A DNA stretch of 64,000 nucleotides, taken from positions 1 to 64,000 of the forward strand of contig JAQGOL010000006.1 of NCBI GenBank assembly GCA_028293625.1, given 5' to 3'. Below are positions 1,777 to 18,330 of the stretch, piece after piece (within the stretch, counting starts at the first letter, position 1; every line of letters starts with the position of its first letter). The translations under genes and the position numbers were made by a program. The notes below the pieces were generated by a model. That model saw only the letters and a program-made list of their open reading frames with translations. It did not search any database and was not told the DNA's origin. This DNA is from Chthoniobacteraceae bacterium (lineage in GTDB: Bacteria > Verrucomicrobiota > Verrucomicrobiia > Chthoniobacterales > Chthoniobacteraceae).

Positions 1777-2490
1777 ATGCATACACCCCTGGACTTGAAG
1801 AATGCGGCGAAGAGAACGGACGCGGTTACGTCAATTAGCCGAGCCGGCCAAGGCCGTCTTTTCCCGACATGCATTATCGCGTTAAAGAAAACGATGGGCT
1901 CCGTGGCAATTGCCGGGATGCTTGCGGCCATGGTGGTTTTTTTGTCCAGCGGTTGCCAGAGCCCCGCGGGCGGCAAGATTCCTGAGCAAGCCGCTGTTTC
2001 GCAGGCGGTTTACCTGGGTGTTGGTGATGTGGTGAAGCTATCGTTTCCCGGGTCGCCCGAGTTTACCCAGTCACAGAGAATTCGCTCGGATGGTAAGCTC
2101 AACCTTGCATTGGTTGGGGAAGTCACCGCTGCCGGAAAGAAGCTCAGGGATTTTCAGAGTGAATTATCGCGCCTGTATAAGCCGCAGTTACTTAACACCG
2201 AAGTGATTGTTACTTTGGAAAGCAGTGCAACGCCGGTGGTTATTTCAGGGGCGGTCACCCGGCCCGGAAAAATCATGATCGAACGCCCTGTGACGGTATT
2301 GGAAGCGATCATGGAAGCCGGCGGGATCTCACCGGCGGGAGATGCGAAAAGGGTGCATCTGATACGTGTTGTGAACGGCGAGCATCATACGCAGGTATTT
2401 GATCTTTCCCCGCTGTTGAGTGGCAAAACAAGCCGCGCGTTTTATGTCAAAGGAGGGGATGTGATTTATGTTCCCCAGAGTATTTTCTAA
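1777..2490 (+). CDS. Polysaccharide export lipoprotein (Wza/SLBB family)
   Basis: The 237-residue product has a basic N-terminus, a hydrophobic segment and a lipobox ending LSSGC (Cys60), so it should be an outer-membrane lipoprotein. After it comes a polysaccharide-export domain (YLGVGDVVKLSFPGSPEF, about 76-160) and an SLBB domain (VVISGAVTRPGKI onward, about 165-237). Family members form or attach to the outer-membrane pore that exports capsule or EPS. It is shorter than full Wza and ends soon after one SLBB unit, like the short exporters found in exosortase loci. An internal Met at codon 40 (base 1894) would shorten the n-region but loses the Lys pair before the hydrophobic stretch, so I kept the ATG at 1777. 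Confidence 0.88.
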   Translation: MHTPLDLKNAAKRTDAVTSISRAGQGRLFPTCIIALKKTMGSVAIAGMLAAMVVFLSSGCQSPAGGKIPEQAAVSQAVYLGVGDVVKLSFPGSPEFTQSQRIRSDGKLNLALVGEVTAAGKKLRDFQSELSRLYKPQLLNTEVIVTLESSATPVVISGAVTRPGKIMIERPVTVLEAIMEAGGISPAGDAKRVHLIRVVNGEHHTQVFDLSPLLSGKTSRAFYVKGGDVIYVPQSIF

Positions 2491-2939
2491 ATAGCGGGAA
2501 AGTTCGTTTTAGCATCCGCCAAAAGGGAATTGAGAGAGATTTGACGGTGCCAGGATGATCTAAAAGAGCGATCTCTGCGTGCGGAATTAACAGCCCTGAA
2601 ATTGCCTATTCTTTTCGCCGGCCGGCGGAAGGCGGTGGCGTTTCAGGGCTTTTTTTATGTCCACTTGCCCCGGAGCTGGAGACGAATCTTCAGCCTGTTT
2701 TCCACGCAACATGACGGTGAAATTGCGCAAAGCTTCGGCTTTCGTAATTTGTGAGCCGATGATAGGGTCCCGGCATCTTGTTTGCTGCGCATTTTCCAAT
2801 CTCTTTGGCATCTGTGTTTCAAAGCCGTTTTTTGACAGGCAACCCCCCTTGCTGATTTGCGAATGTTTTACGTGGTTGGATTACGCGCCGCTCCTCGATG
2901 CAATGAGCGCAGCTTATCGCTTTTGGGAAGAAATCTGCG
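2491..2939. other. Intergenic region between the export lipoprotein and prsK
   Basis: Apart from the terminator hairpin at 2592-2656, I see no gene here. An ORF that covers part of it (2657-2977) has no recognisable features and overlaps the prsK start. The last ~280 bases probably contain the prsK promoter; no sigma-54 element with correct spacing was found. Confidence 0.5.
2592..2656 (+). terminator. Rho-independent terminator after the export lipoprotein gene
   Basis: A 10-bp perfect stem (AGCCCTGAAA at 2592-2601 with TTTCAGGGCT at 2641-2650) encloses a GC-rich inner segment able to fold further, and is followed directly by a run of T to 2656. It lies about 100 bases after the stop codon of the upstream gene and separates it from prsK. 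Confidence 0.8.
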
Positions 2940-5042
2940 ATGAACCTTTTTCTTTCGTTTGCTGCCTCGTTCTTTAGCGCGGTGCTGGCGTTCGCGGTGC
3001 TTGTCCGCGAGAAACGGACTTTTGCGAGCTGCTGTTTTGCCGTCGGAATGGGCGCTCTTTCCATTGAGAGCGCCTTGGAATGCATTCGATTAAACGCGCT
3101 GACGCCCAGGGAGATGGCGACCTGGCAATGGGCGGTTTTTGTCGTGAAATCGTTCATGCCCGGCCTCTGGCTCACCTTTGGTTTAAGTTATTCGCGGGGG
3201 AATTATCGGGAGTTTTTGGTGAAGTGGCGTTTCCTTCTTGCCGCCACTTTTATTCTTCCCATTGGGATCACGCTCGGTTTTCGGGAAGAACTGATAAGAG
3301 GCGCCGTGGCGATAGCCCGGGGAACGGCGCTTCCGGCGGGTGTCGGCAGGATTACTCAGCTTCTGAACCTCCTGCTTCTGATCGGGAACCTCCTCGTGCT
3401 AATGAACCTTGAGGAGACTTTCCGATCGGCGATTGGAACAATGCGCTGGCGGATCAAGTTTGTGGTGCTCGGAGTTGGCGTGATATTTGGGGCGCGAATT
3501 TTCATGCGCAGCCAGGCGCTTCTTTTTTCCGGGCAGAACCGGGCGTTGACTGAAGTGGAGATCGCCGCGCTGCTTCTGGGATGCGCGCTGATGGCCGTCG
3601 CCTATTTGCGAAGCGGATTCGCCGAGATCGATATCTATCCCTCGCGCGCCGTGCTGCACAGTTCAGTCATCGCGCTCCTTGTGGGCGGTTATCTTCTCGG
3701 GATCGGAATGCTCGCCCAGGTGATCGCGCATTTTGGCGGGACACGAAATTTCCAGGCGAAAGCCTTTTTTGTCCTGACTGGAATCGTGGCATTGGCGGTG
3801 GTGCTGCTTTCCGATCGGTTCCGGTTGAAGATTCAATTTTTTGTCAGCCGCCATTTTCGGCTTCCTCAGCATGATTCCCGCAAGATCTGGACGCTGCTGA
3901 CGCATTCGATGTCGGGGGCGCGTGATCAGGCGAGTTTGGCGGTCGCCTCGGCGAAATTGATTTCTGAAACCTTCAATATTTTGTCGGTGACCGTTTGGCT
4001 GGTCGATGAGCAGAACCGGCGGCTTGTTTTTGGAGGTTCCACGGTGCAATGCCAGAAGGAGGCCGATGAGATGAACCTGGAATTTGCGCCTCCGGAGCCC
4101 CTTCCAAGGGGCCTTGGCGGGCTCTCGCTCTTTGATTTGGAAAAGCATCAGGGAGCGTGGGCGGAAACCTTGCGGCAGATCAGTTCCACGCCATTTCGGA
4201 AAGCTGGCAATCGGATCTGTATCCCGTTTCTGGCCGGTGAACGATGGCTTGGAATGGCCATTTTGGCGGACCGGGCTCATGGGTTGCCGTACACGCTTGA
4301 AGAGCTTGATCTGTTGAAGTGCATCGGGGACCAGGTGGCGGCCAGTCTTTTGAGCCTGCAACTCACCGAGGAATTGATGTTGGGCAAGGAGATGGAGGCA
4401 TTCAGGACCATGTCGGCCTTTTTTGTGCATGACCTTAAAAATGCGACGTCGAGCCTGGGGCTGATGTTGCAGAATCTCCCCGTGCATTTTAATGATCCGG
4501 CGTTTCGGGCGGACGCATTGCGAGGGATTGCGAATACGGTTTCCCGGATCAACCATCTGATTGAGCGCCTGAGCGCGCTTAGAAACAAATTTGAACTCAA
4601 AGCCGCGAGATTTGACCTGAATGAACTGGTGAATGAGGCGCTTGAGGGCTTGAACCAGACCCCGGAAATCGAAATAACAAAAGAACTCGGTCCGCTTTCA
4701 AACGTAAATGCGGACCGCGAGCAGCTCCAAAGCGTCTTGACCAATATCCTTCTTAACGCGCGCGACGCCGTCGGAAAAAGCGGCCGCATTATTGTGCAAA
4801 CCAGCCAGCGTGAAGGCCGCGCTGTTTTATCGGTAGCGGATACCGGCTGCGGCATGAGTGCCCCATTCGTGAGGGAATCGCTCTTTCGGCCTTTTCATAC
4901 GACCAAGAAAAAGGGGCTCGGGATCGGGATGTTTCATTCCAAAATGATTGTCGAAGCGCATCGGGGCCATATTCAGGTGGAAAGCGAGCCGGGCAAGGGG
5001 ACGACATTCCGGGTCAGCCTGCCATTGGAGATGCCATTGTGA
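2940..5042 (+). CDS. prsK: Exosortase-system sensor histidine kinase PrsK
   Basis: The 700-residue protein has a multi-helix membrane region (about 1-300), a GAF-like domain (about 325-480) and a C-terminal histidine kinase core. The phospho-acceptor is His497 in FFVHDLKN, followed by an N-box (NILLNARDAV), G1 (VADTGCGM) and G2 (GLGIGMFHSKMIVEAH) of the ATPase domain. This architecture and size match PrsK of the XrtA/PEP-CTERM system (TIGR02916). The stop overlaps the start of prsR by one base (TGATG), so the two are translationally coupled. The signal is unknown; in the family it is thought to control sortase substrates and EPS genes through PrsR. Confidence 0.9.
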   Translation: MNLFLSFAASFFSAVLAFAVLVREKRTFASCCFAVGMGALSIESALECIRLNALTPREMATWQWAVFVVKSFMPGLWLTFGLSYSRGNYREFLVKWRFLLAATFILPIGITLGFREELIRGAVAIARGTALPAGVGRITQLLNLLLLIGNLLVLMNLEETFRSAIGTMRWRIKFVVLGVGVIFGARIFMRSQALLFSGQNRALTEVEIAALLLGCALMAVAYLRSGFAEIDIYPSRAVLHSSVIALLVGGYLLGIGMLAQVIAHFGGTRNFQAKAFFVLTGIVALAVVLLSDRFRLKIQFFVSRHFRLPQHDSRKIWTLLTHSMSGARDQASLAVASAKLISETFNILSVTVWLVDEQNRRLVFGGSTVQCQKEADEMNLEFAPPEPLPRGLGGLSLFDLEKHQGAWAETLRQISSTPFRKAGNRICIPFLAGERWLGMAILADRAHGLPYTLEELDLLKCIGDQVAASLLSLQLTEELMLGKEMEAFRTMSAFFVHDLKNATSSLGLMLQNLPVHFNDPAFRADALRGIANTVSRINHLIERLSALRNKFELKAARFDLNELVNEALEGLNQTPEIEITKELGPLSNVNADREQLQSVLTNILLNARDAVGKSGRIIVQTSQREGRAVLSVADTGCGMSAPFVRESLFRPFHTTKKKGLGIGMFHSKMIVEAHRGHIQVESEPGKGTTFRVSLPLEMPL

Positions 5043-6394
5043 TGAAGGCCAAATTGCTCATTGTCGATGATGACGAAGCGATCCGGACCCAGATGAAATG
5101 GGCGCTGGTTCAGGATTACGAAGTTCTTCTGGCCGAGGACCGGGAGGAAGCGATCGCGCTATTTAAGTCGGAGCGTCCGGATGTAACATTGCTCGATCTC
5201 GGATTGCCGCCATCGCCCAATACGCCTGAGGAAGGTCTTGCGGCGCTCTCCGGGATGCTTGCTTTGGATCGGAATGCCAAAATCATCATCATTTCGGGCC
5301 AGGGAGAACGGGAGAACGCCCTGCGCGCCGTTGGAGCGGGTGCGTATGATTTTTTATGCAAACCGGTCGATTTTGATGAGCTCAAGCTTTTGCTCGGCCG
5401 CTGCTTTTATCTGGTGGGGCTCGAGCGGGAATACCGCGAAATGCAGCAGACAGTGGAGAGCGACGGGTTTGAGGGGATGCTTGGGACAAGCGTGAAAATG
5501 CAGGGAGTCTTTGCATTTCTGCGCAAAGTGGCGCCGACAAGCGCCCCGGTGCTTTTATTGGGTGAAAGCGGCACAGGAAAAGAGATGGCTGCCGTGGCGA
5601 TCCATCGCCGGAGTCTGCGGAAAAACGGTCCGTTCATTGCCATCAATTGCAATGCGATTCCTGAGAACCTGCTTGAAAGCGAACTTTTCGGCCATGAAAA
5701 AGGGGCCTTCACCGGCGCCCAAGTCCAGCGCAACGGGCTGATCGAAAGCGCGGCGGATGGCACTCTTTTCCTCGATGAAATCGGTGAGCTGCCTCCTCCA
5801 ATCCAGGTGAAGCTTTTGCGCTTTCTTCAGGAGCAAACCTTTATGCGCGTGGGCGGGAGGCGCGAGATTCAAATCGACACACGGATCGTAGCCGCGACCA
5901 ACGCCGACTTAAGTCAATCGATCGCAAACGGCACTTTCCGCGAGGACCTTTACTTCCGGCTCGCTGTTGTCGTGATCTCTTTGCCGTCGCTTCGGGATCG
6001 AGGGGAGGATATCGGGGTGGTCGCCTCGGAGTTCCTGCGGCGGTTTGCCTTAAAGAACGGGAAATCGGGTCTGTCCTTTGCTCCGGAAGCGTTGAAAGCC
6101 ATCAACGCGCATGCATGGCCTGGCAACGTCCGGGAACTTCAGAACCGCGTGCAGCGGGCGGTGATCATGGCCGACGGCAAACGGATTACGGCAAAAGATA
6201 TGGAGCTGGCCGGGGAATCGGAGTCGGTGCCTTCGGGCACCCTGAAAGAAGCGCGTGAAGGGATCGAGAAGGCAATGGTGCAGCAGGCTTTGAAGAAGCA
6301 CGCGGGAAGAATTACCTCCGCCGCGGCCGATCTCGGCATCAGCCGGCCTACCCTCTACGAGCTGATGGAAAAATTGGGAATCGCCAAGCGCTGA
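5042..6394 (+). CDS. prsR: Sigma-54-dependent response regulator PrsR
   Basis: The protein has a receiver domain (1-120; phospho-acceptor Asp52 in LLDLGLPP, conserved Lys in CKPVD), an AAA+ sigma-54 interaction domain (about 145-370) and a Fis-type helix-turn-helix at the C-terminus (ITSAAADLGISRPTLYELME). The AAA+ domain shows Walker A GESGTGKE, the GAFTGA loop that contacts sigma-54, and Walker B GTLFLDEIGE. It matches the PEP-CTERM-box response regulator family (TIGR02915). A TTG three bases upstream is possible, but the ATG at 5042 gives the usual TGATG coupling to prsK. Its likely targets are the GG-N10-GC promoters at 15369-15383 and perhaps 17720-17734. Confidence 0.92.
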   Translation: MKAKLLIVDDDEAIRTQMKWALVQDYEVLLAEDREEAIALFKSERPDVTLLDLGLPPSPNTPEEGLAALSGMLALDRNAKIIIISGQGERENALRAVGAGAYDFLCKPVDFDELKLLLGRCFYLVGLEREYREMQQTVESDGFEGMLGTSVKMQGVFAFLRKVAPTSAPVLLLGESGTGKEMAAVAIHRRSLRKNGPFIAINCNAIPENLLESELFGHEKGAFTGAQVQRNGLIESAADGTLFLDEIGELPPPIQVKLLRFLQEQTFMRVGGRREIQIDTRIVAATNADLSQSIANGTFREDLYFRLAVVVISLPSLRDRGEDIGVVASEFLRRFALKNGKSGLSFAPEALKAINAHAWPGNVRELQNRVQRAVIMADGKRITAKDMELAGESESVPSGTLKEAREGIEKAMVQQALKKHAGRITSAAADLGISRPTLYELMEKLGIAKR

Positions 6395-6510
6395 TCGGAA
6401 AAGAAATGGGGACGGATATCCATCTATCTGTTTGCGCCTATTTTCGCGGACAACCCGCCCAATGGCTGCTACATGCAGTCGCGGCGACAATTCAGTAACC
6501 CTCAAGAACA

Positions 6511-9500
6511 ATGAAGATTTCAGACGTGTTTCAAAAATGGCGGCCCGTGGTTTGTCAGTTTTTTATGGCCTCGCTTTGTCTGCTGATTGCCGTCGGATGC
6601 ACGGCCAAAGCGAAGCAGGCGCGGATTTTGAATCGAGCTGAGAACTATTTTAAAGCCGGCAAATATGACGAGGCGCGGATTGAATATCTGAACCTGTTGC
6701 GGCTTGATCCTGTGAACGCGCTGGCAGCGGAACGGGTGGGCACTATTTGGCTCGAAGATGGCGCGCCATTGCGTGCGTATCCTTATTTGATAAAAGCGCG
6801 GGAACTTGCCCCGCAGAACGTGACGGTCTGGGAAAAACTCACCTCCGCGTATCTGGCATTGGGCCATTATGAGGAGGCGAGAAAAGAAGCGACCGCCCTT
6901 CTTAAAGAAGCCCCGGGCAGCGACGATGCACTCCTGGTGTTGATTGAAACAGCGCGCACGCCCGAAACGCTCGCCGCCACCAAGGAAGTTCTGCACGGTT
7001 TGCCGCAGAAGGAAAAAGCCAGCTTCCACCTTGCCTCGGCCAATGTGGCGGTGCGGGAAAAAAATGTGCCGGCCGTTGAGGAATTGCTTCAGAAGGCGCT
7101 TGCGGCGGATCCCAAGTTGCCCGCCGCGCATCTGGCGCTGGGCGCGTTGCGCAGCTTTCAAAAAAAGCCGGAGGAAGCGAGTCAGGAGTTCAAGACGGCG
7201 TCGGATCTGGCTCCGGTGCGCTCACTGGCGCGATTGAAATATGCCGAGTTTAAATTCCAAGCCGGCGACATTGCCGGGGCAAAAGAGTTGCTGAAAGCGA
7301 TGACGGTCCAGGCGCCCGATTATTTGTCCGCGTGGCGTATTTTGGCGCAGGTGGCTTCCGCGGAAAAGAACTACGATGAATCGTTGAAGCTGATGGAGAA
7401 CGTGTTCAGCCGCGATCCGGAGAATTTTAACACGCGGCTGCTGCAGGCGGATGTCTGTCTGCAAAAAGGCGATTCAAAGAAGGCGGTGGATACTTTGGAG
7501 CGCTTAAACAAGGTGCATCCCAATATGCCGGTGGTGAAGTACCAGCTGGCACGCGCCTACCTGCAGAATAACAATCCAGCCCAGGCGCCGGGCATGTTGG
7601 CGCAGGCAATCGCCGCCAATCCGGATTATGTCGAGGCGCTCTTATTGCTGGGCGAACTGAACCTGAGGTTAGGCGATGCCGCGCCCGTGGTGGCGGCAAT
7701 GCAGGGATTGCTTAAAAAGCAGCCGAACCTGCTGCCAGCCCAGGTGCTCTTAAGCGAAGCCTACCGGTCGCTTGGACAATTGGACGATGCAATGGCCGTT
7801 ATCCGCGCCCAGATCAAAGCGAATCCAAAAAACGCGCAATCCCATCTCCTGCTTGGATTACTGCACCGGCAACAAAACAAGCTCGCGGAGGCGCGCAAAT
7901 CGTTTGAAACCGCCCTTGAGATTGCGCCGGATAATCTTCTGGTTCTCGCGCAGATCGTTGACCTCGATGTGACGGAAAAGAAGTTTGCGGTCGCGCTGGA
8001 TCGTGTGCGCGCGCAGATCCAAAAGAATCCGAAGGCGGCGGGTGTGCAGTTTCTTGAGGCGAGAGTTTATAGTGCCCAGGGCGAATGGGACCACGCTGAG
8101 GCGGCGCTTCTTAAAACCCTGGATATCGATCCGAACTTTTCCCGCGCGTATGATCTTCTGATTGCCACCTATATCTCGGCCAACAAGCTGGCTCCAGCTA
8201 TTGGGCAACTCGAAGGGTTGTTAACCAAGAATCCCAATAACTCGCGGGCGCTCATGATGACCGCGTTGATTTATGATAAAAAGGGCGACCTGGAAAAGAC
8301 GGGGGATTCTTATGAAAAGTTGCTCGCCGCGAGTCCTGAATTTGTGCCCGCGCTGAATAATCTGGCGTATTTGTATGCAGTCCGTTTGAAAGACGTCGAG
8401 AAGGGGTATGAACTGGCGCGCAAAGCCAGATCGCTGCAACCGGACGATGCGTCCGTGGCCGACACGTTTGGATGGATCCTTTATCAGCGCGGGGACTACA
8501 AGCAGTCGCTGGCATTGTTGCAACAAAGCGTGGCGAAAATTCCCGACAATTCGGAGATCCAGTTCCACCTCGGCATGGCAGCCTACATGATGGGACAGGC
8601 CGATCTGGCGAGGTCTGCATTTCAGAAAGCGCTGGCCGGGCCCGAAGCGTTTTCGGGCAAAGACGAGATTCCGCGCAGGCTGGCTATTCTGGACGATGGG
8701 ACGAAATCAGAGCTCTCTATTGGGCAGCTGGAGGCGATGGTGAAGGAGTATCCAAACGATCTGATGGTGCGGCTCCGGCTCGCAAGCGTTTATGAAAAAC
8801 AAGGCGCGTTCGAGAAAGCGTCAACCACCTGTGAAGAAGCGCTCCAGTTGAATCCCAAATTGCTTGGGGCACTTTTGAAGCTTGCCCAGTTGAATGCCGG
8901 CCCGCTGAAACATAAAGAGAAGGCGTTTGAGTTTGCAAAAAAGGCAAGGGAACTTGCTCCCGAAGACCCGCAGGCCTCGGGGATATTGGGCGGCGTCGCG
9001 TATCGCACCGGCAATTACAGCTGGGCCTACAGCCTTCTTAAGGAGAGCTCAAGGCAGCTTAAGAGCGATCCCGCCGTCTTGCATGATGCCGCCTGGGCTG
9101 CGTATAGCCTCGGAAAAGTGGAGGAAGCGCGTGAAACGATGCAAAAAATCCCGGCGGAAGGATCCGCCGCATTCATTATCGAAGATGCAAAAATTTTTCT
9201 TAGTCTGACGGCGCCGGGTGACGGAAAAGCGGCCGCCGAACTGCAGATCCAGGCGGCGTTGAAAGCGAATCCGAGTTACGGCCCGGCCTTGATGGCCCGC
9301 GCTGCTATCGAGCGTCAGCGCTCGGATCTCAAAGCGGCAACGGCTTCGTATCTGGAAGTTTTGCAGCTCTACCCTGATTTTACTCCCGCGCAAAAGCAGC
9401 TGGCCGGCATCTACGTTTTGGATCCGGAGAATCGAGTCAAAGCGTATGAGCTGGCCATCAAGGCGCGCAAAGATTCTCCCAACGACGCCGCGCTGGCGGA

Positions 9501-9759
9501 GGTGCTTGCCGAGCTGAGTTTTTACCGAAAAGAATTTGCCTATGCGATTCAGTTGTTCCAGCAGAGCGCTCTCGATAAGCCGCTGGATGCGAAGCAATTG
9601 TATTGTCTGGGGGTTTCTTATTTCCAAACAAAACAAAAACCTAAAAGCCGGGAAACGCTCGATCAGGCACTCGCCCTCGGCCTTCAGGATCCGTCAGCCG
9701 CCGATGCACGCCGGCTTATCGCTGAAATTGACGGGACAGCCTCGAACACGAAGCCGTGA
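6511..9759 (+). CDS. prsT: TPR-repeat lipoprotein PrsT
   Basis: The 1082-residue product begins with a lipoprotein signal (LLIAVGC, Cys30) and is then almost entirely tetratricopeptide repeats, for example AENYFKAGKYDEARIEYLNLLRLDP and many units ending in A.NP. This is the architecture of PrsT of exosortase systems (TIGR02917), though it appears longer than the roughly 900 residues usual for that family. It follows prsR by 116 bases and probably shares its transcript. The role is inferred: a periplasm-facing scaffold for the EPS and sortase machinery. The start ATG at 6511 places the charged n-region MKISDVFQKWR before the hydrophobic core. Confidence 0.88.
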   Translation: MKISDVFQKWRPVVCQFFMASLCLLIAVGCTAKAKQARILNRAENYFKAGKYDEARIEYLNLLRLDPVNALAAERVGTIWLEDGAPLRAYPYLIKARELAPQNVTVWEKLTSAYLALGHYEEARKEATALLKEAPGSDDALLVLIETARTPETLAATKEVLHGLPQKEKASFHLASANVAVREKNVPAVEELLQKALAADPKLPAAHLALGALRSFQKKPEEASQEFKTASDLAPVRSLARLKYAEFKFQAGDIAGAKELLKAMTVQAPDYLSAWRILAQVASAEKNYDESLKLMENVFSRDPENFNTRLLQADVCLQKGDSKKAVDTLERLNKVHPNMPVVKYQLARAYLQNNNPAQAPGMLAQAIAANPDYVEALLLLGELNLRLGDAAPVVAAMQGLLKKQPNLLPAQVLLSEAYRSLGQLDDAMAVIRAQIKANPKNAQSHLLLGLLHRQQNKLAEARKSFETALEIAPDNLLVLAQIVDLDVTEKKFAVALDRVRAQIQKNPKAAGVQFLEARVYSAQGEWDHAEAALLKTLDIDPNFSRAYDLLIATYISANKLAPAIGQLEGLLTKNPNNSRALMMTALIYDKKGDLEKTGDSYEKLLAASPEFVPALNNLAYLYAVRLKDVEKGYELARKARSLQPDDASVADTFGWILYQRGDYKQSLALLQQSVAKIPDNSEIQFHLGMAAYMMGQADLARSAFQKALAGPEAFSGKDEIPRRLAILDDGTKSELSIGQLEAMVKEYPNDLMVRLRLASVYEKQGAFEKASTTCEEALQLNPKLLGALLKLAQLNAGPLKHKEKAFEFAKKARELAPEDPQASGILGGVAYRTGNYSWAYSLLKESSRQLKSDPAVLHDAAWAAYSLGKVEEARETMQKIPAEGSAAFIIEDAKIFLSLTAPGDGKAAAELQIQAALKANPSYGPALMARAAIERQRSDLKAATASYLEVLQLYPDFTPAQKQLAGIYVLDPENRVKAYELAIKARKDSPNDAALAEVLAELSFYRKEFAYAIQLFQQSALDKPLDAKQLYCLGVSYFQTKQKPKSRETLDQALALGLQDPSAADARRLIAEIDGTASNTKP

Positions 9760-9809
9760 TTCTCCCGGAGATTTAAATGTTCTCCCGCGCTGCCTGAGCT
9801 TTTCGGAGT

Positions 9810-9971
9810 ATGTTAATACCGTTCGCCGTGCCGGACGCCGGTTCCACCCTGTTTGCGCTGGCGATTAGCTTTGCGGCGCTTGTTGCCTTGCGCAAACGGC
9901 TCCAAAAGAGAGGCGCAGCAGAAGTAAAGGAGCCGGTTACGGAAAAACCGGAAGTTAAAGAGATCCGCTGA
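9810..9971 (+). CDS. 53-residue protein consisting of a VPD-type exosortase sorting tail
   Basis: This short ORF reads MLIPFAVPDAGSTLFALA and continues through a hydrophobic stretch to a basic cluster (LRKRLQKR) and a charged tail ending VKEIR. The order VPDAGST, one membrane helix, Arg/Lys cluster is exactly that of VPDSG-CTERM sorting signals (TIGR03778), but here there is almost nothing before it and 20 charged residues after it. An in-frame TGA at 9795-9797 means it is not a visible extension of prsT. A GGAG at 9805-9808 sits only one base before the ATG, so translation initiation is doubtful. It may be a true mini-substrate, or the 3' remnant of a larger gene. It is too short for standard ORF cut-offs. 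Confidence 0.5.
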   Translation: MLIPFAVPDAGSTLFALAISFAALVALRKRLQKRGAAEVKEPVTEKPEVKEIR

Positions 9972-9984
9972 ACGGTCGCCATTG

Positions 9985-10122
9985 ATCAGCCGCTCCTCCG
10001 GAGCGGGACGTGGAGGAGACGTATTCCGGTGACTCACGTCACCGGCTAATTTCAGGCGAGCCCTCTGGGCTGCACGAATGAGAAGCGAGAGCATTCATGT
10101 AAACGAATCGTGCAAATCGTAT
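9985..10122. repeat. Hairpin-rich interspersed repeat, copy 1
   Basis: About 138 bases that recur at 16091-16226 in the same orientation with roughly 80% identity. It contains three palindromes: CCGCTCC/GGAGCGG, CCGGTGAC/GTCACCGG and AGCCC/GGGCT. The best conserved part is the right end (GAGAGCATTCATGTAAA, then CGTGCAAATCGTAT). It ends at the stop codon of the minus-strand TPR gene, so it would form that gene's 3' untranslated RNA. Confidence 0.8.
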
Positions 10123-11735
10123 CAGTTGTTCCCTGACGACGGGCGTGGAGAACCAATCCCCAGTTCCTTTTTGCGTGCCGCAACTTCTTCGGGTGTCGCG
10201 GAACTCTCCATCTGTTTTTTACGCGCCGCGATTTCGGAGCTGTCCGCGGTAAACTCCGATCCGGGCCATTTTCTCCGTTCGCCCGTTTCGGCGCTGGAAG
10301 GGGCGAATTCGGTTTTCAGCTGTTTCGTGCGGGCAGCGATTTCTTCGCTGGTGGCAAGAAATTCGTTCCCCAGTTGCCGTTTCCGAAGCTCCATTTGATC
10401 GGAGCTAGGCAGAGCATTTGGGTCCGAGGCGCCAATTTCCGCGACCCGATCGCGAGCGGCCTGTGCCCGATTGTATTGACCCAATCTGGTGGCGTAATCG
10501 GCCATTGCCGAAAGGAGTGTCGTGTCAGTTCCGGCAGCACGGATGGCGGCCGTCCAGAGGGTGCGGGCCTGCGTTGTGTTGCCAAGCTGGCTTTCGCACC
10601 GCGACTGCATGATAAGGCTCATAACCGGGGGCAAGGGGAGGTTTCTCTTTTCGAGAACAGCCAGAATCTCCTCCCACCGGCGCAAGGAAGCGAGCGCGTT
10701 GAGGTGTTGCTCCAGAAGGTCAACCCGCGTCATGGCGCGATTGAGCGGCAAAAGCGTTAAGAGACGCTCGCCCTCGTTCAGCGTCAGGAGGAGGTCGGCA
10801 AATTCTTTAAAAACCTGCGGATCGGCCGAGGCAAAGTCCCCCTGAATCTGGTCGAGCAGGTTCTTTTTATCATTGGGCCTGCAACGGAGCTCAAGCCGGA
10901 GCGCTTGCAAACGATGGGGCAATTTTGCCAGGGGATGATGAATGATTGCCGTGGCAACCGATTGCGCGCTTTCACTGGAGGCGTTCGGATCCGCGGCCAA
11001 ACCCATCAAAGCGTCAAGTCCGACCTGATTTTTGAGAGGGGCGAGCGCCTGCAACCGACGGACACCTTCCTGATGGGTCTCTTTTGAATCAAAAAGAAGC
11101 GCGCCCAAAAAGAGCTGGCCCTGAGGATTTGCGGGATCAAGCTCGATCGCCTGCTTAACCGTCAGAAGCGCTCCGGCTGTATCACCACTGGCAAGTTTGC
11201 ATCGAGCCGAAAGGCGTTGGTATTCCGCACTGCGGGGATTCTGAGCCAGTAAAATGGCGGCTTGCGCTTCGGCTTCGGCAAATTCTCCACTTTGAAGCGC
11301 CGCATCCGCGGCAGCGATCCGGTCGGCATCGGACACAGTTGGCAGAATGGTAAGCGCTTTCCACCACGGAAAGGCGCTGGCGCTATCGCCACGGGCAGTT
11401 AGGACGGTTGCAAGCGCCCTGATCGCCGCCGGTTCGTTGTTTGAGAGGATATAGGCTTCCTTCCCTTTAATCAGCGCCTCATCGAGTTTGCCGTGAGCGG
11501 TCAGCTCCAGGCTCTCCGATGCGCGCGCCTTGCTGTGAAGCGTCTTCAGTTTGCCGTATAATGGCCGGCTTGCCATTACCAGGCCCACGATCACGAGCAG
11601 TAATAACGAGAATTTGATCCCTTGTTTGAATGCTCGTTTTTTTGCCGCCGAATTCTGCGAGGATCTGCCGGACTGCTCCACAACAGCCTCGGGCTCATTG
11701 GGCTTGTTTGCGTGGGGAACTTGCGGGTCTGACAT
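10122..11735 (-). CDS. Membrane-anchored TPR protein with a C-terminal charged tandem repeat
   Basis: The 537-residue protein has a hydrophilic N-terminal 40 residues, one transmembrane helix (FSLLLLVIVGLVMASRPLYG) and then TPR-like helices (about 70-440). From about residue 448 to the end are five imperfect 16-18-residue units of the form EIAARKKQL..EF...S: MELRKRQLGNEFLATS, EEIAARTKQLKTEFAPSS, AETGERRKWPGSEFTADS, SEIAARKKQMESSATP and EEVAARKKELGIGSP. I do not know this tail from any family. It lies downstream of the exosortase gene on the same strand (225-base gap) and may share its transcript. A role in assembly of the sorting or EPS machinery is inference. Confidence 0.75.
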   Translation of the reverse strand: MSDPQVPHANKPNEPEAVVEQSGRSSQNSAAKKRAFKQGIKFSLLLLVIVGLVMASRPLYGKLKTLHSKARASESLELTAHGKLDEALIKGKEAYILSNNEPAAIRALATVLTARGDSASAFPWWKALTILPTVSDADRIAAADAALQSGEFAEAEAQAAILLAQNPRSAEYQRLSARCKLASGDTAGALLTVKQAIELDPANPQGQLFLGALLFDSKETHQEGVRRLQALAPLKNQVGLDALMGLAADPNASSESAQSVATAIIHHPLAKLPHRLQALRLELRCRPNDKKNLLDQIQGDFASADPQVFKEFADLLLTLNEGERLLTLLPLNRAMTRVDLLEQHLNALASLRRWEEILAVLEKRNLPLPPVMSLIMQSRCESQLGNTTQARTLWTAAIRAAGTDTTLLSAMADYATRLGQYNRAQAARDRVAEIGASDPNALPSSDQMELRKRQLGNEFLATSEEIAARTKQLKTEFAPSSAETGERRKWPGSEFTADSSEIAARKKQMESSATPEEVAARKKELGIGSPRPSSGNN

Positions 11736-11920
11736 AGGTCTGATTAAAACGGGACGGGAGCCATTGCCGGTTCCAAGATCACGCGTACAAGCAGAAGAAG
11801 TAGTGCGATTATTTGGGAGGCACGCGGCCGGCGCGAATGGGAATTCCGCTCATTGGATGGGTCGTCTGGAAGAAGCTGCCCTGGAAGGGTGCGCTTGATC
11901 GTAATCTTCCTGAGTTCGGA

Positions 11921-11950
11921 CGATTAAGATTAAGATTATGATTAAGAGGG
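11921..11950. repeat. GATTA-type short tandem tract
   Basis: Between the TPR and exosortase genes the sequence runs through CGATTAAGATTAAGATTATG and another ATTAAG before AGGGAGAGG. A closely similar tract occurs at 55404-55430, also between two minus-strand genes. Confidence 0.6.
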
Positions 11951-11960
11951 AGAGGCGAGA

Positions 11961-13499
11961 TTATCGTTTAACCCGCTCAAAATGGGCCAGGGTAGGGAGC
12001 GCTTCTCCAACCGCGGTCAATGCCTGCTCATAGGTTGAATATCCGCTGACTACGATTTCGAGGGTCTGTTTGCCAAGGTCGCGCCGGCCAATCAAGGCGC
12101 GGTGGATATCGCCCCGCAACGAGAAATCCTGCTCAAGCCACGCGTTTTCCCGTTTCCGGTCTGATTCTTCGTAAAAGGTGAAAAAGGAATAAACAGAGCG
12201 TCCCTGGGCTTCGAATTCGGAAATGGTAAATAAGAGGTCGCCGCCTTCAATAGGGAGCCGCTGAGGCGGGAATGTACGGATCCATTTCAGACCCGCTGCC
12301 GGAAGGCAGACTTCAGGATGATGACTTTGGGCGCCGTTTGTGGTCGTCTCTCCCGGATTCCATCGCACCGCGCTAAATGCCCAGAGAGTTCGATCGTATT
12401 CCTTCCAGTTCGCAATTTGAATATCGGAGCAAAGAAGGATGTCCCGGGTCGGCTGCAAGACCGGCTGTATCTGATAACCGGGTTTATCTTCAGGCCACCG
12501 TACGGCGATGGTTTCCGCGACGCTTTGTTCGTGCGACCGATACCAATATTCCGTGGTGGCCAGGATTGAGATAAACCAGATTGCAATCGGAACGCCTGCC
12601 CACGCCGGAAAAGGCCTCAATGACGGTTTTGCCGTTTGAAGCGGTATCGGCCCGGCGACAAGCCGATTGGCCAGTTGATTGAGCAGATAAAAGGAGACCA
12701 GGAAAATCCCCCAGCCGCTTGAATCATGCCAGACGTTAACCGCCCCGATTCCCTGGGTGGAGGCAATGATCGCAAGCAGGAAGTTTCGCAGCAGGTTAAA
12801 AAAGAGGGAGAGCCCAGCCCCGGCTGCGATCAACAGCAGCCGGGGGCGCACTCGAATCCTATGCAGCTCCCCAAGAGCCAGCGCCGCCATGATCATCGAT
12901 TGAAACGAGCGGATACCGCTACACGCTTCCTCAACGTCGAGCGTACCATTGATCAAAGAAACCAAATTGCCTGTCCGCGTCGCGGCGATCCCGCAAAGTT
13001 GAAGCAATTCGACGGTCACTGTTGTGACCATTCCCGTGAGCCCCTCGATCAATGGAGATTCCAGATGCCTGCTCCAGGGGACAGCGCAAAAAATAAAAAG
13101 CACTGGAAAAACAAACCCCCGTATTCCAGCCCAGCCGGCACGGCAGGCGAGCGATCCGAGCGTGAAACCGGTTACAAGAAGCGCCAATAAATAGTTCGCA
13201 TGATAGGATTGCGGAGCAGCCGTGCGAAAAATCCAGGCCGGCAGCAGCAAAAGAGCGCACGCAATGGCAAGGGCACCCGCCCCGCGGCCATGCGTTGGCG
13301 CCGTGGGCGGAATATCTTTCCAGCGGCGAAGAAAAAAATAGAAAGCCAGGGGCGGCACCAGCCAGCCAAACTCATATTGCGGAATCGCGGCCCAGAAGTT
13401 GCTTAATTGAGTGATAAGCATGCCCCACGGCAATAACCATGCACCCCAAGGCAGCCACTTTTTGAAAAAGGTCGAACGCGTAATCAAATGAAAAACCAA
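11961..13499 (-). CDS. Exosortase with fused EpsI-like C-terminal domain
   Basis: The 512-residue integral membrane protein carries the exosortase catalytic triad: Cys193 in EEACSGIRS, Arg238 in FNLLRNF and His258 in NVWHDSSG. About eight membrane helices span residues 15-310. Residues about 310-512 form an EpsI-like (DUF3485) soluble domain with HHPEVCLPAAG, a typical EpsI motif. Exosortases cleave PEP-CTERM-type tails and attach the protein to the cell surface, so the genes at 13596, 14632 and perhaps 9810 encode its substrates. The only upstream start in frame is TTG (13499), since a TAA lies two codons before it; the first ATG would be inside helix 1. Start position is therefore uncertain. 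Confidence 0.92.
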   Translation of the reverse strand: MVFHLITRSTFFKKWLPWGAWLLPWGMLITQLSNFWAAIPQYEFGWLVPPLAFYFFLRRWKDIPPTAPTHGRGAGALAIACALLLLPAWIFRTAAPQSYHANYLLALLVTGFTLGSLACRAGWAGIRGFVFPVLFIFCAVPWSRHLESPLIEGLTGMVTTVTVELLQLCGIAATRTGNLVSLINGTLDVEEACSGIRSFQSMIMAALALGELHRIRVRPRLLLIAAGAGLSLFFNLLRNFLLAIIASTQGIGAVNVWHDSSGWGIFLVSFYLLNQLANRLVAGPIPLQTAKPSLRPFPAWAGVPIAIWFISILATTEYWYRSHEQSVAETIAVRWPEDKPGYQIQPVLQPTRDILLCSDIQIANWKEYDRTLWAFSAVRWNPGETTTNGAQSHHPEVCLPAAGLKWIRTFPPQRLPIEGGDLLFTISEFEAQGRSVYSFFTFYEESDRKRENAWLEQDFSLRGDIHRALIGRRDLGKQTLEIVVSGYSTYEQALTAVGEALPTLAHFERVKR

Positions 13500-13518
13500 T
13501 CGTTTTTACAGAGAGATG

Positions 13519-13546
13519 AAAAAGGGAGCCCGAAGGCTCCCTTTTT
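13519..13546 (-). terminator. Intrinsic terminator of the PEP-CTERM gene
   Basis: On the minus strand a 7-bp stem GGGAGCC/GGCTCCC closes a TTCG tetraloop and is followed by five T. It lies about 50 bases after the stop of the PEP-CTERM gene and overlaps the upstream edge of the exosortase gene, so the exosortase needs its own promoter or readthrough. Confidence 0.9.
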
Positions 13547-13595
13547 ACCTATCGTAATGATGAAGTGGCCGTTTGACAGGCCAATTCAATCCAGC

Positions 13596-14243
13596 TTACG
13601 CGATAACGCGACGGCGGGGCCTGCAGAGTCCCGTCATGGTCACCATCGCAAGGCCGCTCAACAGCATTCCGGGCTCAGGAATTGGAACAAGGCCATAAAC
13701 GTCAAGGCTCGCGTTGAACGAAGAATTGGTTCCAAACGATCCATTTGGAGGATTAGGACCATTCGGGGTAAACGTGATGGTTTTGACGTTCAAAACGATT
13801 CGGCTGATTGTATTGCCAGCGAAATCATTCGGACCGCCATTAGGAAAGAACCGCTCACTTTCACCCGTTGCCGACGTAGCAGTGAAGGTATCAGTCTGAG
13901 CCGAGTTCCGGGCTGTAATCAGCAATTGAAGCTGGTTATTAACGCCATTTGTCAGCAACGCCGCGAATTGACTAAAACCCGCATCTCCTGGAGAAAGCGT
14001 GAACACGTAGGGTGTTTGGTTGCTGGCCAGGAACGGGGTGTTGGTAAAGATAGTGAACGCCGAGCCGGTTCCAAATGCATCAGTCGCTTGGAATTGAGCC
14101 GCGTTAATATCAGCCGACGGATCATTGAGCGTCGTTGGGAAATTCGTCGTTCCAATGAGGTAATCAACTGGAGCGGCGAGTGCGTTGACACTCAGCAGCA
14201 TTGCGCTGGCGCCAAGGAACAATAGAGAGAACTTTGATATCAT
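13596..14243 (-). CDS. PEP-CTERM surface protein
   Basis: The 215-residue protein has an N-terminal signal peptide (about 1-24, cut near ALAAP) and a C-terminal sorting tail: PIPEPG, a hydrophobic helix (MLLSGLAMVTMTGL) and a basic end (RPRRR). The middle is Asn-, Thr- and Phe-rich, with no cysteine before the tail helix and a likely beta-sandwich fold as in other secreted PEP-CTERM proteins. It should be exported by Sec and processed by the exosortase encoded immediately downstream. It has its own terminator at 13519-13546. Upstream lie a 12-bp palindrome (14299-14310) and three 11-bp direct repeats (14416-14448) that may be regulatory. Binding partner is unknown. Confidence 0.88.
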   Translation of the reverse strand: MISKFSLLFLGASAMLLSVNALAAPVDYLIGTTNFPTTLNDPSADINAAQFQATDAFGTGSAFTIFTNTPFLASNQTPYVFTLSPGDAGFSQFAALLTNGVNNQLQLLITARNSAQTDTFTATSATGESERFFPNGGPNDFAGNTISRIVLNVKTITFTPNGPNPPNGSFGTNSSFNASLDVYGLVPIPEPGMLLSGLAMVTMTGLCRPRRRVIA

Positions 14244-14298
14244 GTTTTAGGTAGGTTTTTTCGGGGATTAGGTTGGCTGTCGCGCCCATATCGTAAAT

Positions 14299-14310
14299 GT
14301 ACGATCGTAC
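14299..14310. promoter_or_regulatory. Perfect 12-bp palindrome upstream of the PEP-CTERM gene
   Basis: GTACGATCGTAC lies 56-67 bases before the start codon at 14243. A perfect dyad in this position could be an operator. There is no direct evidence of the protein that binds it. Confidence 0.35.
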
Positions 14311-14415
14311 GGTTGTATGGCTCGCAGATTTCGGTCTTAAAAAATTTGTAAGGCGTCGGCAAGCGCATAATCCTTAAAATGGATAATGGAAGTGTAGCGG
14401 TAATTCGTTCATTTA

Positions 14416-14448
14416 AACGCACTTCTAACGCGCTTCTAACCCACTTGA
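14416..14448 (-). promoter_or_regulatory. Three 11-bp direct repeats, possible activator-binding sites
   Basis: On the plus strand the units are AACGCACTTCT, AACGCGCTTCT and AACCCACTTGA, head to tail with no gap. They lie 173-205 bases upstream of the PEP-CTERM start, a typical distance for an enhancer of a sigma-54 activator such as PrsR. Single look-alikes occur upstream of the VPDGG gene (15470-15478) and the sugar transferase (17832-17842). Assignment to PrsR is inference. Confidence 0.4.
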
Positions 14449-14566
14449 AATGGAGATTAGTTTTCAAGGATGGCTGTCGCTGCGTTGGGTATTGGCTCTT
14501 TTTCTTTTCCTGCCGTTTATTGCCCCCTTGGCAACGATTTGCCAAACCCGTGATCCGTACAAAATA

Positions 14567-14598
14567 AAAGAGGAGCAGAGTGACCTCTGCTCCTCTTT
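14567..14598 (-). terminator. Intrinsic terminator of the VPDGG-tail gene
   Basis: A 14-bp perfect stem (AAAGAGGAGCAGAG with CTCTGCTCCTCTTT) closes a 4-base loop, and on the minus strand is followed by TTTATTTTG-like T-rich sequence. It lies about 35 bases after the stop codon at 14632. Confidence 0.88.
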
Positions 14599-14631
14599 AT
14601 TCAGATTAAATTTCCCTAAGGGAAATCAGAT

Positions 14632-15291
14632 CTAGCTCAATTTGCGGCGGATCAGGCCGAGCGTGGTGACGCTCATGCCAAGAAGCATGACAGTCATGCC
14701 GCCGTCTGGCACGCTAACGCTATCGATAACAGGGCCGAACGGGGTGCCTGTATTGCCGCTCTTGAATTCAAGGTAGTAGGTGCCGGCGGTAGCTACGTTG
14801 AAAACGCCAAGCCGGTCTTCCCACAGCATGTTTGTGAAGCTGTTGGCTCCTGTAACTTCGTATGTGAAGTCAGGCAGGGTGAGGAATGTGCTGCCATCCA
14901 GATTAAGGAGGCTGAGTGTAAGGCTCTTGGTGCCCACGCCGCCCTGAGGATTGCCAGTCATCGCAAAGCTAACGCGAGCGGTTCCAACTGGCAGAGCGAT
15001 CGCCTGTCTGATCGCGGCTGCGTCGTCGTTTCCGTTCAGGTCGACAGATTGCACGCCATCGTTGGCCTGCCAGAAGCTGCCAATGAAATCGACATCGCCA
15101 CTTCCAGTTCCAGTTGATGCGCCGCCGCCGGTGACTTCCCAGCCGGTGATCGCACCAGGAGCGGGCTCATTGCTGTAGCCACCAGGAAGAACAGGCAGTT
15201 CGAAGTCTCCGTTGATGATAGGCACTGCGGATGCGGTGCTGATTCCGATGGCCAGGGCGGCCATGGCGAGAGGCCATTTGATCATTTTCAT
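14632..15291 (-). CDS. Secreted protein with VPDGG-type exosortase sorting tail
   Basis: From the ATG at 15291 the product is 219 residues: a signal peptide (MKMIKWPLAMAALAIGISTA), a lectin-like beta-rich body beginning IINGDFELPVLPGG (a start common to choice-of-anchor and DUF642-like proteins), and a C-terminal tail VPDGGMTVMLLGMSVTTLG followed by LIRRKLS. The tail is a VPDSG-CTERM variant. An in-frame extension to 15384 exists but would put 31 residues before a clear signal peptide, so I reject it. A sigma-54-type promoter at 15369-15383 would give a 66-base leader, and a strong terminator follows at 14567-14598, so this is a single-gene unit likely under PrsR control. Confidence 0.88.
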   Translation of the reverse strand: MKMIKWPLAMAALAIGISTASAVPIINGDFELPVLPGGYSNEPAPGAITGWEVTGGGASTGTGSGDVDFIGSFWQANDGVQSVDLNGNDDAAAIRQAIALPVGTARVSFAMTGNPQGGVGTKSLTLSLLNLDGSTFLTLPDFTYEVTGANSFTNMLWEDRLGVFNVATAGTYYLEFKSGNTGTPFGPVIDSVSVPDGGMTVMLLGMSVTTLGLIRRKLS

Positions 15292-15368
15292 TGTGATTTG
15301 GTTATCTTTTTGGGTTGTAGTGTTTTCACCCAGCCGTTGAAACGACTGATTGACAGGGCGGCAGGTAA

Positions 15369-15383
15369 GCGGCTCCCGTGCCA
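15369..15383 (-). promoter_or_regulatory. Sigma-54 (-24/-12) promoter of the VPDGG-tail gene
   Basis: On the minus strand the sequence TGGCACGGGAGCCGC has a perfect -24 box (TGGCACG), the invariant GG-N10-GC spacing, and CCGC in place of TTGC at -12. The predicted start is near 15357, 66 bases upstream of the ATG. PrsR, encoded in the same locus, carries the GAFTGA motif needed to activate such promoters. Confidence 0.65.
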
Positions 15384-16274
15384 CGAATAGATGCGGAGCT
15401 TATCATGAGTTGCAAAGCGCTGATTTCATGGCGTTTGCATTTTAATTGATTTTTTATGCAAATTTATTCCGCGCTTCTCTCCGGTAAGAAAATGTAAAGC
15501 ATTCCGACGGATGTTTTGACGCCACAACCGGTGGCCTATGGCCTAACATGCTGGAAATGAGCAGCCTAACGATGGCCAGGTCAGTTATTTTCAGGTTGTA
15601 AAGAAGTCCGACGAGTCAGGGAAATTGACACCATTCTATTTTCAAGTTTCGCTCAAAAAGGCGTCTTTTAACGAACGAAGGAGTGCATTTGGGATTATAA
15701 TAAATACCCGGATGACGTTGTATGTTAAACTCTCCCAGGCATTTCAGCTAATGACATTGGATAAGCCTGGGAGGTCTCCGGAAGCTGCGTTCCAGGAACG
15801 GCCGTTTCCGAATGAGCGGCTTGCCGGTTGCTCTGAACAGGCTTTGGAGATTAGCCCGGGACCGCGTAGAGAATGGGCAGCAACCCCGGAGAGGGTGCCG
15901 GAAACAATGCTATCCCTGGCAAATTCTCTCCTCAGCCCCCAAAAACCGCCATTTTATCAACGCCGAAGGTGTCCCGGAAATTAGCCGCTCGTGGAGCGGA
16001 GCGGAACACCGGAAAACATCGGCAAACGAACTCGCCCCGGCCGGGGCGACGGAGATCGATGTACAACTCGCGGCATTTATGATGACATTTATCAGCCACT
16101 CCTCCGGAGCGTGATGCGGAAGGAGGTATTCCAGTGACTCAGCTACGGCTAATCTCAGGGCGGCCCTCCAGGCTGCACGAAGCGCAAAGCGAGAGCATTC
16201 ATGTAAAGGAACCGTGCAAATCGTATAAACTCCGGAGAGTTCCGTGGGTTTATCGTGCCGCTTGCGGGCAATCC
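15384..16274. other. Long non-coding region rich in repeats
   Basis: No supported gene lies between the VPDGG gene promoter and the sugar-transferase stop. ORFs can be read through it on both strands, but they cross the interspersed repeat at 16091-16226 and another palindromic patch at about 16030-16052 (CGCCCCGGCCGGGGCG) and lack protein features. The right half (about 15910-16230) looks like a mosaic of palindromic elements. Confidence 0.6.
16091..16226. repeat. Hairpin-rich interspersed repeat, copy 2
   Basis: This is the second copy of the element at 9985-10122, in the same orientation. The CTCCTCCGGAG palindrome and the right end (GAGAGCATTCATGTAAA, CGTGCAAATCGTAT) are kept, while the middle hairpin (CCAGTGACTCAGCTACGG) is degraded. 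It sits about 50 bases 3' of the minus-strand sugar transferase. Confidence 0.8.
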
Positions 16275-17675
16275 TTAATAGGCGCTTTTGGGCGGCCGAA
16301 TCATCTGCCACACCGTGCGAAATATGATGAGCCAATCGAGCAGAGGAGACCAGTTCTCCAGATAATAGAGGTCCGCCTGCAACCGTTGATGAACGTGGTG
16401 CTGGGTGCGTGTTTCCCCCCGAAAGCCCCGGACTTGCGCAAGGCCGGTGATGCCCGGCTTGATCAATCCCCGGATGCGATAGAACTCGGTCATTTTCGCG
16501 AACGACACCTCATGTTCAAAAAGATGGGGCCGCGGTCCGACGATGCTCATTTCGCCCCGGAATACATTCAGAAACTGGGGCATTTCATCGATGCTCATCT
16601 TGCGCATCCAACGGCCGAGGGTGAAGACGCGGGAATCGTGGGCAGTTGCCTGATCGGCTTCGCGACCGTGGCCGACGTGCATGGTGCGGTACTTAAAAAT
16701 TGAGAACTCCTCGTTATGGAGGCCGATTCGTTTTTGGCGAAAGAAAAGGGGCCCTGGAGACTGGAAACGATGCACAATCCAGACGCCAAGGTTCAGCCAT
16801 GGCAGGACCAATATGATGATTGGCAGCGCAACGCTCATATCGATCGCGCGCTTGATTACCCGGTTAAAGGGCGATTCAAGCGGTTCATGGCGCAATGAAA
16901 CAAAATAGAGCCCGTCATCGCGAAAAAAGCGAATGGGGCGGCCAAGTTTTTCCTCAAGGCCATGCGCGAAAAACAGCCGGGTGCCGGCTCCTTCGCAGCG
17001 GCTGATCAACGGTTCCAGTTGCGAGGCGGGCAGTTCGCGGGTCAGGATGATCTGGTTAACTCGCAAGCGGCTTGAAAGCTCTTCAATTTGGTCAAGTGAG
17101 CCGAGAATCGGCAGGCTTGCGGCAACGGTCCCTTCACTGAGCGGAATAAATCCGAGGACCTGCATGCCGAACGACTGTTTGCGTTCAAGCCAGGCGTCAA
17201 GGCGCAGCAGGTCTTCGGGATGTCCGCAAAGCACGGTGCGTTGCAAACGGCGTCCGCCGAAACACATTTGAGCAAGAAACGGCGCCATGTACCGGTTCGA
17301 GAAAAAGAAAAGAAACGGGAGAAGTGAGAAATAGGAAAAGAGGAACCCCCGCGAAATGTACGTGTCCTGCGCGGCGACAAGATAAAAAAAGAACGGTCCC
17401 GCGACCATGAGCGTCTGACGGCAGGTAAGCTTTGAGATCTGAAACAAATCAAGTCTCAGGATATCAAAGTCGTAAAGACTCGCATACACGACCTGAAGCA
17501 TTAACGCGCCGCCGATGAGCAGCGAGTAAGTGAGATAATGGTGGTAATGAGGAATCCCGCTGGGACGCAACAAGCCGAATTGAAAAAATGCCAGAGCCCA
17601 GAACAAGACAAACGCCAGCAATGCCTGGGCGCAAATATGAACCAGATTGAGTCCTTTTGCCCTTTGATTAATCAT
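16275..17675 (-). CDS. Polyprenyl-phosphate sugar-1-phosphate transferase (exopolysaccharide initiation)
   Basis: The 466-residue protein has four or five N-terminal membrane helices (about 1-130), a nucleotide-binding-like middle domain (about 140-270), and a C-terminal bacterial sugar transferase domain (about 275-466). The last includes KRAIDMSVALP, SPGPLFFRQKRIG, FKYRTMH, SIDEMPQFLNVFRGEMSIVG with PRP, and the final PGITGLAQVRG. This is the WcaJ/EpsB type that starts repeat-unit synthesis by moving a sugar phosphate onto undecaprenyl phosphate. Proteins of this type are regular members of exosortase loci. A GG-N10-GC element at 17720-17734 may be its promoter. Confidence 0.92.
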   Translation of the reverse strand: MINQRAKGLNLVHICAQALLAFVLFWALAFFQFGLLRPSGIPHYHHYLTYSLLIGGALMLQVVYASLYDFDILRLDLFQISKLTCRQTLMVAGPFFFYLVAAQDTYISRGFLFSYFSLLPFLFFFSNRYMAPFLAQMCFGGRRLQRTVLCGHPEDLLRLDAWLERKQSFGMQVLGFIPLSEGTVAASLPILGSLDQIEELSSRLRVNQIILTRELPASQLEPLISRCEGAGTRLFFAHGLEEKLGRPIRFFRDDGLYFVSLRHEPLESPFNRVIKRAIDMSVALPIIILVLPWLNLGVWIVHRFQSPGPLFFRQKRIGLHNEEFSIFKYRTMHVGHGREADQATAHDSRVFTLGRWMRKMSIDEMPQFLNVFRGEMSIVGPRPHLFEHEVSFAKMTEFYRIRGLIKPGITGLAQVRGFRGETRTQHHVHQRLQADLYYLENWSPLLDWLIIFRTVWQMIRPPKSAY

Positions 17676-17719
17676 TGTGACAACAGATCGAGGATGTAAA
17701 CGGGGTGGGTTTGCCGGTC

Positions 17720-17734
17720 GCTACCGAAGAGCCA
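17720..17734 (-). promoter_or_regulatory. Candidate sigma-54 promoter of the sugar transferase
   Basis: On the minus strand TGGCTCTTCGGTAGC keeps GG-N10-GC with TGGC at -24 and TAGC at -12. The predicted transcript would start near 17708, 33 bases before the ATG. The match is weaker than that at 15369-15383. Confidence 0.35.
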
Positions 17735-18330
17735 CATAGTATTACTGAGATATGGCCGCGATTGGAACTCGAATTTGAATCATGAAAAAATTTCAGGAGG
17801 TGAAAGGAGACGGATTGCAAGGGTGGTCGAAAACGCATTTCGCAACTTTATTTCAGAATTAACGACTTCTGTTGCAAGTTGCACGCCATCGCCGCCGAAA
17901 TCTCAATTTCGGAGGAAGCGTGTTGCGATGATTTCCCGGGATTTCTTTTTCCGGATGAACTTCTATTAACGATAAAATAGCAGATCAATGCCTATGTTTG
18001 GATTTCAGTCGGTAACCGGCTGATCGGTCCCTCAGATCTGATTCATCAATTCCGGACCAAAGCAGGCATGCGCCGCGCTCTTTGGCTTTTTGTATACAGG
18101 CAAAAAGCGGGAATCTGCGCCGCGACGGATTTTGCATACAATCAGCTGCGTGTGCGGTTCAACGCGGACTTTGCAGGGATCAACTTTGAAAGATGAGTTC
18201 CTTGAATAAATGGTGAGTGACGCTTATACGCCTGCGGGTTGATTTTCGACCATCCAATGCGGTTCCGTTTAGGATCAATTGGCAATGGCGTTGAAAACGG
18301 CTCGTTATCGACCACCTCTATTTATTTCCC
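17735..18330. other. Intergenic region between divergent sugar transferase and DUF1592 genes
   Basis: No gene is well supported. A 42-codon ORF at 18068-18196 (plus; starts MRRALWLFVYRQ) follows an AGCAGG sequence but has no recognisable feature. A near match to a sigma-54 site (TGGCAATGGCGTTGA, 18280-18294) has GA instead of the invariant GC. Confidence 0.45.

Follow-up and report, generated by a model that had tools for sequence, protein, structure and literature searches.

The window, the whole 64,000-nucleotide stretch of Chthoniobacteraceae DNA analyzed here, carries on its forward strand the genes prsK, encoding a histidine kinase (2940–5042; over the TIGR02916 cut-off), prsR, encoding a sigma-54-type response regulator (5039–6394; over the TIGR02915 cut-off), and prsT, encoding a TPR protein (6511–9759; 388.1 bits against TIGR02917, cut-off 312.2). 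Ahead of these, at 1777–2490, lies what we take to be a Wza-like export gene. The order Wza-like gene, prsK, prsR, prsT (1777–9759) recurs partly or wholly in several relatives, in which prsK and prsR show about 50% identity or more. Directly downstream of prsT, 50 nt past its stop codon, a forward-strand frame of 53 codons begins (9810–9971); its translation consists of the six residues MLIPFA followed by a VPDAGST motif, a hydrophobic helix and an Arg/Lys cluster. VPDAGST follows the stop codon of prsT after only 68 nt, and on the upstream side the frame is closed by an in-frame TGA (9795–9797).

Five genes of the genome match the exosortase-family model TIGR04178 over cut-off, and the nearest of them lies 2 kb from the 53-codon frame on the reverse strand (11961–13499; PF09721, 142.8 bits). 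Its product falls below the cut-offs of XrtA, XrtC and TIGR02602; against XrtC, the VPDSG-specific model, it was the only one of the five compared and scores 36.2 bits where the cut-off is 300. A DUF642 protein with a VPDGG tail is encoded further along the reverse strand (14632–15291; PF04862 over cut-off), with the ATG at 15291 taken as the start of a gene whose longest frame starts at 15384; the tail scores 24.4 bits against PF18205 (cut-off 25) and 14.6 bits against TIGR03778 (cut-off 22). Two matches to the PrsR-type box GTCGG-N6-TTAC (15494–15508 and 15598–15612, reverse strand) lie upstream of the DUF642 gene and not of the 53-codon frame, together with a sigma-54-like site (15369–15383, reverse strand) that fits only a relaxed pattern (TGGCAC-N6-CGC) and not the strict consensus TGGCAY-N6-TGC. 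The DUF642 gene is the likely PrsR-regulated substrate gene of the window. Neither a box nor a sigma-54 site was found by these patterns near the 53-codon frame (9500–9830).

On its other side the frame adjoins a dispersed repeat, roughly 270 bp long and containing several hairpins, of which the genome holds three copies. The copy R1 (9980–10122, forward strand) starts about 8 bp beyond the stop codon of the frame and is without some 132 bp on its left that the other two copies (15954–16226 and G000:C31:835324-835566) share. The segment 9972–10125 folds better than 198 of 200 shuffles, and a search of positions 1–20000 against Rfam gave no match at gathering scores. The position of this left-shortened copy so close to the stop suggests a breakpoint at the 3' end of the frame and fits a rearrangement there; a partial insertion of the repeat would look identical. 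Two of the copies flank a block that includes a second TPR gene, the exosortase and two secreted proteins.

A stand-alone sorting signal and its extension

The initial annotation had described the frame as an exosortase sorting signal alone, directly after prsT, and profile searches bore this out. The frame scores 26.1 bits against TIGR03778 (curated cut-off 22) and 30.3 bits against PF18205 (curated cut-off 25); the part matched by TIGR03778, a model of only 24 positions, comprises VPDAGST, the hydrophobic stretch and the onset of the basic cluster (9828–9893, forward strand). In a six-frame search of the organism's own 6.8 Mb genome with TIGR03778 this match was recovered at an E value of 8.1e-5 and was one of two over the cut-off among the 12 matches listed. 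The same search of 14 control genomes gave some match at E ≤ 10 in 13 of them and a match over the cut-off in none; together, the E value and the controls indicate that the motif is more than a chance occurrence.

In the frame all three elements of the signal, motif, helix and basic cluster, are undamaged and correspond to those of VPDSG-CTERM proteins as modeled by TIGR03778 and PF18205. In contrast to these proteins, the frame has by eye neither a signal peptide nor an exported body, given the six residues before the motif and the in-frame stop upstream, and its signal is not C-terminal, as 23 residues follow the 24-residue domain. The initial annotation had placed 20 charged residues after the basic cluster; the length of about 20 residues is right, while only about half of them are charged. 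A scan with the consensus Shine-Dalgarno pattern found no match of at least four bases at a usable spacing before the frame, which is weak evidence, since only 20 of the 30 long frames of the window have such a match at some early start and 8 of the 30 at their first start. Apart from matches of some 25 bases, the DNA of the region (9760–9985) occurs only once in the genome.

Codon choice divides the frame in two. A codon model was built from the 30 long frames of the window, and the 53-codon frame was compared with real segments and with 195 spurious frames, after a split behind codon 28, the end of the model match, that was set after a first look at the whole-frame score. For synonymous choice the signal part scores 0.102, which places it at the 48th percentile of 481 real segments; 6.7% of the spurious frames reach this value. 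Of 520 real segments, 3.7% score as low as the final 25 codons (−0.160), and 68.2% of the spurious frames attain that score. Third-position GC drops from 0.70 in the signal part to 0.48 in these codons. When codons and amino acids are scored jointly, the whole frame appears gene-like, outscoring 97.9% of the spurious frames and, in a set of 239 real segments, 28.0%, a result that may reflect the signal part only.

The K/E-rich extension, which spans 25 codons and the stop (9894–9971, forward strand), is also long for a tail of this kind. Among 32 distinct tails, which meet a pattern in loci gathered for other purposes and so form no random sample, 29 have at most nine residues after the 24-residue domain. 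Three run on for at least ten residues, namely the present frame and the tails of loci L113 and L122 described below, and all of these are bodiless, the open frame ahead of the motif being just 10 to 28 residues long. Passages of an earlier study of PEP-CTERM proteins report that fewer than ten residues follow the domain in 87% of them and that long-tailed members may be non-functional (PMC1569441). Codon choice, third-position GC and length suggest that the extension is probably read-through into formerly untranslated DNA.

Sorting-signal genes after prsT in relatives

A lack of conservation of the short frame beyond this strain was one of two outcomes that the initial annotation had named as refuting its reading. 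No convincing homologue of the 53-residue protein was found in 147 genomes, own genome included, the next best match (E 0.0096) lying inside a 269-residue frame, nor in a genome-contig scan that may omit very near genomes. One match of that scan, inside a 342-residue frame, looked spurious and was rejected. No stand-alone tail was seen near related exosortases in nine loci, eight from other genomes and one further locus from this genome; pattern matches in two of the loci near related exosortases (L130 and L135) were unlike sorting tails. By titles and abstract openings, the papers searched on exosortases in Verrucomicrobia or with small proteins, and on pseudogenes with PEP-CTERM or LPXTG sorting signals, contain nothing about stand-alone tails, and VPDSG-CTERM was not found in the literature searched, where mentions of 'VPDSG' are unrelated by title.

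The gene prsT itself is sparsely distributed. At E ≤ 1e-60 it occurs in eight of the 147 genomes, own genome included, and in none of three genus mates; at E ≤ 1e-100 it occurs in 24 of 385 sampled genomes of the class. Its best relatives, about 50% identical, come from another family of the same order, and the only other prsT within the family is 34% identical. With genus mates that are without prsT, the block at 1777–9759 is possibly a horizontally moved module.

The other such outcome was a larger gene body in this position in relatives, and here too it was obtained, as whole genes were found. We examined 33 prsT loci, which come from fewer genomes, as several contribute two, and 30 of these include 300 bp or more of downstream sequence. 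Eight of the 30 encode, on the same strand and within 1 kb after prsT, a secreted VPD-type protein of full length (L053, L055, L056, L060, L085, L098, L100 and L102); these proteins share with the 53-codon frame both the same-strand position after prsT and the sorting signal. Of the five loci with a prsT of 47% identity or more, four have such a gene; in the fifth (L058) another gene intervenes and a VPD-type gene is 1,033 bp away. By pattern, no VPD-type gene was found within 1 kb in the other 22 of the 30 loci, among them the better prsT matches L057, L082 and L083. The prsT-adjacent proteins have 185–190 residues and a hydrophobic leader in L053, L055 and L056, and L060 has a 200-residue frame. 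L057 (G124:C153, 2072–8595) holds two tandem prsT genes, 42% and 45% identical to that of the window.

In these eight loci the DNA between prsT and its VPD-type gene contains the PrsR-type box in seven, the sigma-54 site in seven and both in six. The prsT-adjacent genes of relatives, with frames of 192–278 residues, thus mostly have box and sigma-54 site, whereas the 53-codon frame is without both. Box and sigma-54 site were seen together upstream of VPD-type genes in the window (15369–15612) and in L054–L056, L058, L060, L085, L100 and L102, and the contig of L054 ends right after them. The genomes with this pair are presumably Verrucomicrobiota. The unit of substrate gene and promoter after prsT seems to come and go among relatives. 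The pair resembles the motif pair described, in passages of PMC1569441, upstream of PEP-CTERM genes, where it is reported only from Proteobacteria among the genomes of that study and PrsR is the proposed activator; a PEP-CTERM gene adjoining prsT has been shown to be RpoN-dependent in Aquincola, according to passages of PMC9850573.

The genome studied here also encodes a homologue of a prsT-adjacent body, on contig C38 and away from prsT; the locus that holds it (L001) contains neither a box nor a strict sigma-54 site. The region G000:C38:43094-44986 has two such homologues, within open frames of 1596 and 236 residues; the shorter frame bears the best VPDSG tail of the genome.

Bodiless tails were found elsewhere. 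From the short-frame VPDSG matches in the 30 prsT genomes 15 stretches were taken and the frames of seven read, the remainder entering the list of tail lengths only; two of the seven, at contig edges (L111 and L114), were left out of the count of orphan tails. Four VPD-type tails (L112, L113, L121 and L122) have little ahead of them, as in the 53-codon frame, and those of L113 and L122 likewise continue past the domain. In L112, L113 and L121, motif, helix or basic cluster is visibly decayed, whereas all three elements are intact in the present frame. At locus L118 (G466:C66, about 1360–1540) a 56-residue protein consists of little more than a hydrophobic leader and a VPDAGASG sorting signal, and by its sequence it is a putative natural minimal substrate. 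Although it is almost pure sorting signal, as is the frame of the window, it has a signal-peptide-like N-terminal leader and a normal short end, and the frame of the window has neither; its locus contains no strict PrsR-type box or sigma-54 site.

Origin of the 53-codon frame

We consider it probable that a PrsR-regulated surface gene was deleted here and that the frame is its surviving tail, a relic. A gene for a secreted VPD-CTERM surface protein would once have followed prsT, as a separate unit that in some relatives appears to have a PrsR-type box and a sigma-54 promoter of its own. A deletion would have removed the promoter, the signal peptide and the body from this genome and left the exosortase tail 68 nt past the stop codon of prsT; an ATG present by chance and a later-than-usual stop would then have created a 53-codon frame that runs on into DNA without gene-like codons. 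Such a frame would most likely be functionless and, if read at all, would be read as a poor passenger on the prsT message. Any translated product is predicted to be a single-pass peptide with N-out, C-in topology, in which the basic cluster would keep the C-terminus inside and VPDAGST would lie at the outer face, where exosortase substrates show the motif.

Several observations argue for this origin: the position after prsT is shared with whole VPD-type genes, whose box, sigma-54 site, leader and body are absent here; codon choice breaks at the extension; the tail is unusually long; tails without a body exist also in L112 and L121; and the left-shortened repeat copy adjoins the stop. Against it stand the 22 of 30 loci without such a gene, the intact signal and the gene-like joint score of the whole frame. 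No trace of the lost body was found near the frame, so that position alone argues for one. Most of the orphan tails seen are less well preserved than this one, and the loss may accordingly have been recent, or a small function may remain. As the leftover end of a lost surface-protein gene, the frame is probably ordinary and represents no new kind of mini-protein. Of the roles put forward for it in the initial annotation, that of a relic is favored by the whole genes in relatives and by the lack of conservation, while those of decoy and regulator gained no support.

The strongest competing explanation, although an unlikely one, is that the frame is a translated mini-substrate, an N-out peptide without signal peptide that would be made with prsT and would occupy or titrate the exosortase or couple PrsT to it. 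A tripartite signal that is intact and scores over two cut-offs, its location 50 nt past prsT, the five exosortase-family genes of the genome with one of them 2 kb away, and the near-minimal protein of L118 are all consistent with such a role, and since the signal is intact the frame may yet be a small functional substrate; the failure to find a homologue in the 147 genomes or the contig scan, the extension without gene-like codons and, as weak evidence, the missing Shine-Dalgarno match argue against it. Somewhat less likely still is that a gene fragment has turned regulator, its signal being translated with prsT and inserted N-out, so that cleavage or occupancy of the enzyme would tune sorting.

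We regard as improbable an assembly error in which reads over a longer gene were collapsed and the body is missing in the assembly only. The genome is a draft of 43 contigs and a repeat adjoins the frame, but some 9.8 kb of a 184 kb contig precede the frame, its DNA occurs nowhere else in the genome, and no body-like copy was seen beside prsT. That a motif matched by a model so short should have arisen by chance in a spurious frame unrelated by descent to VPD-CTERM genes is very improbable in view of the genome-wide E value, the control genomes, the gene-like codon choice of the signal part and a location where relatives encode such tails.

If the frame is a relic, its interest is small: it indicates that exosortase tails can outlive the bodies of their genes, and annotation that relies on the tail model only will report such fragments as VPDSG-CTERM proteins. 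A functional frame would mean that a bodiless substrate can regulate an exosortase, which would be a new mode of regulation. The more useful by-product of the analysis is the arrangement seen in some relatives, in which a substrate gene, preceded by a PrsR-type box and a sigma-54 site, follows prsT.
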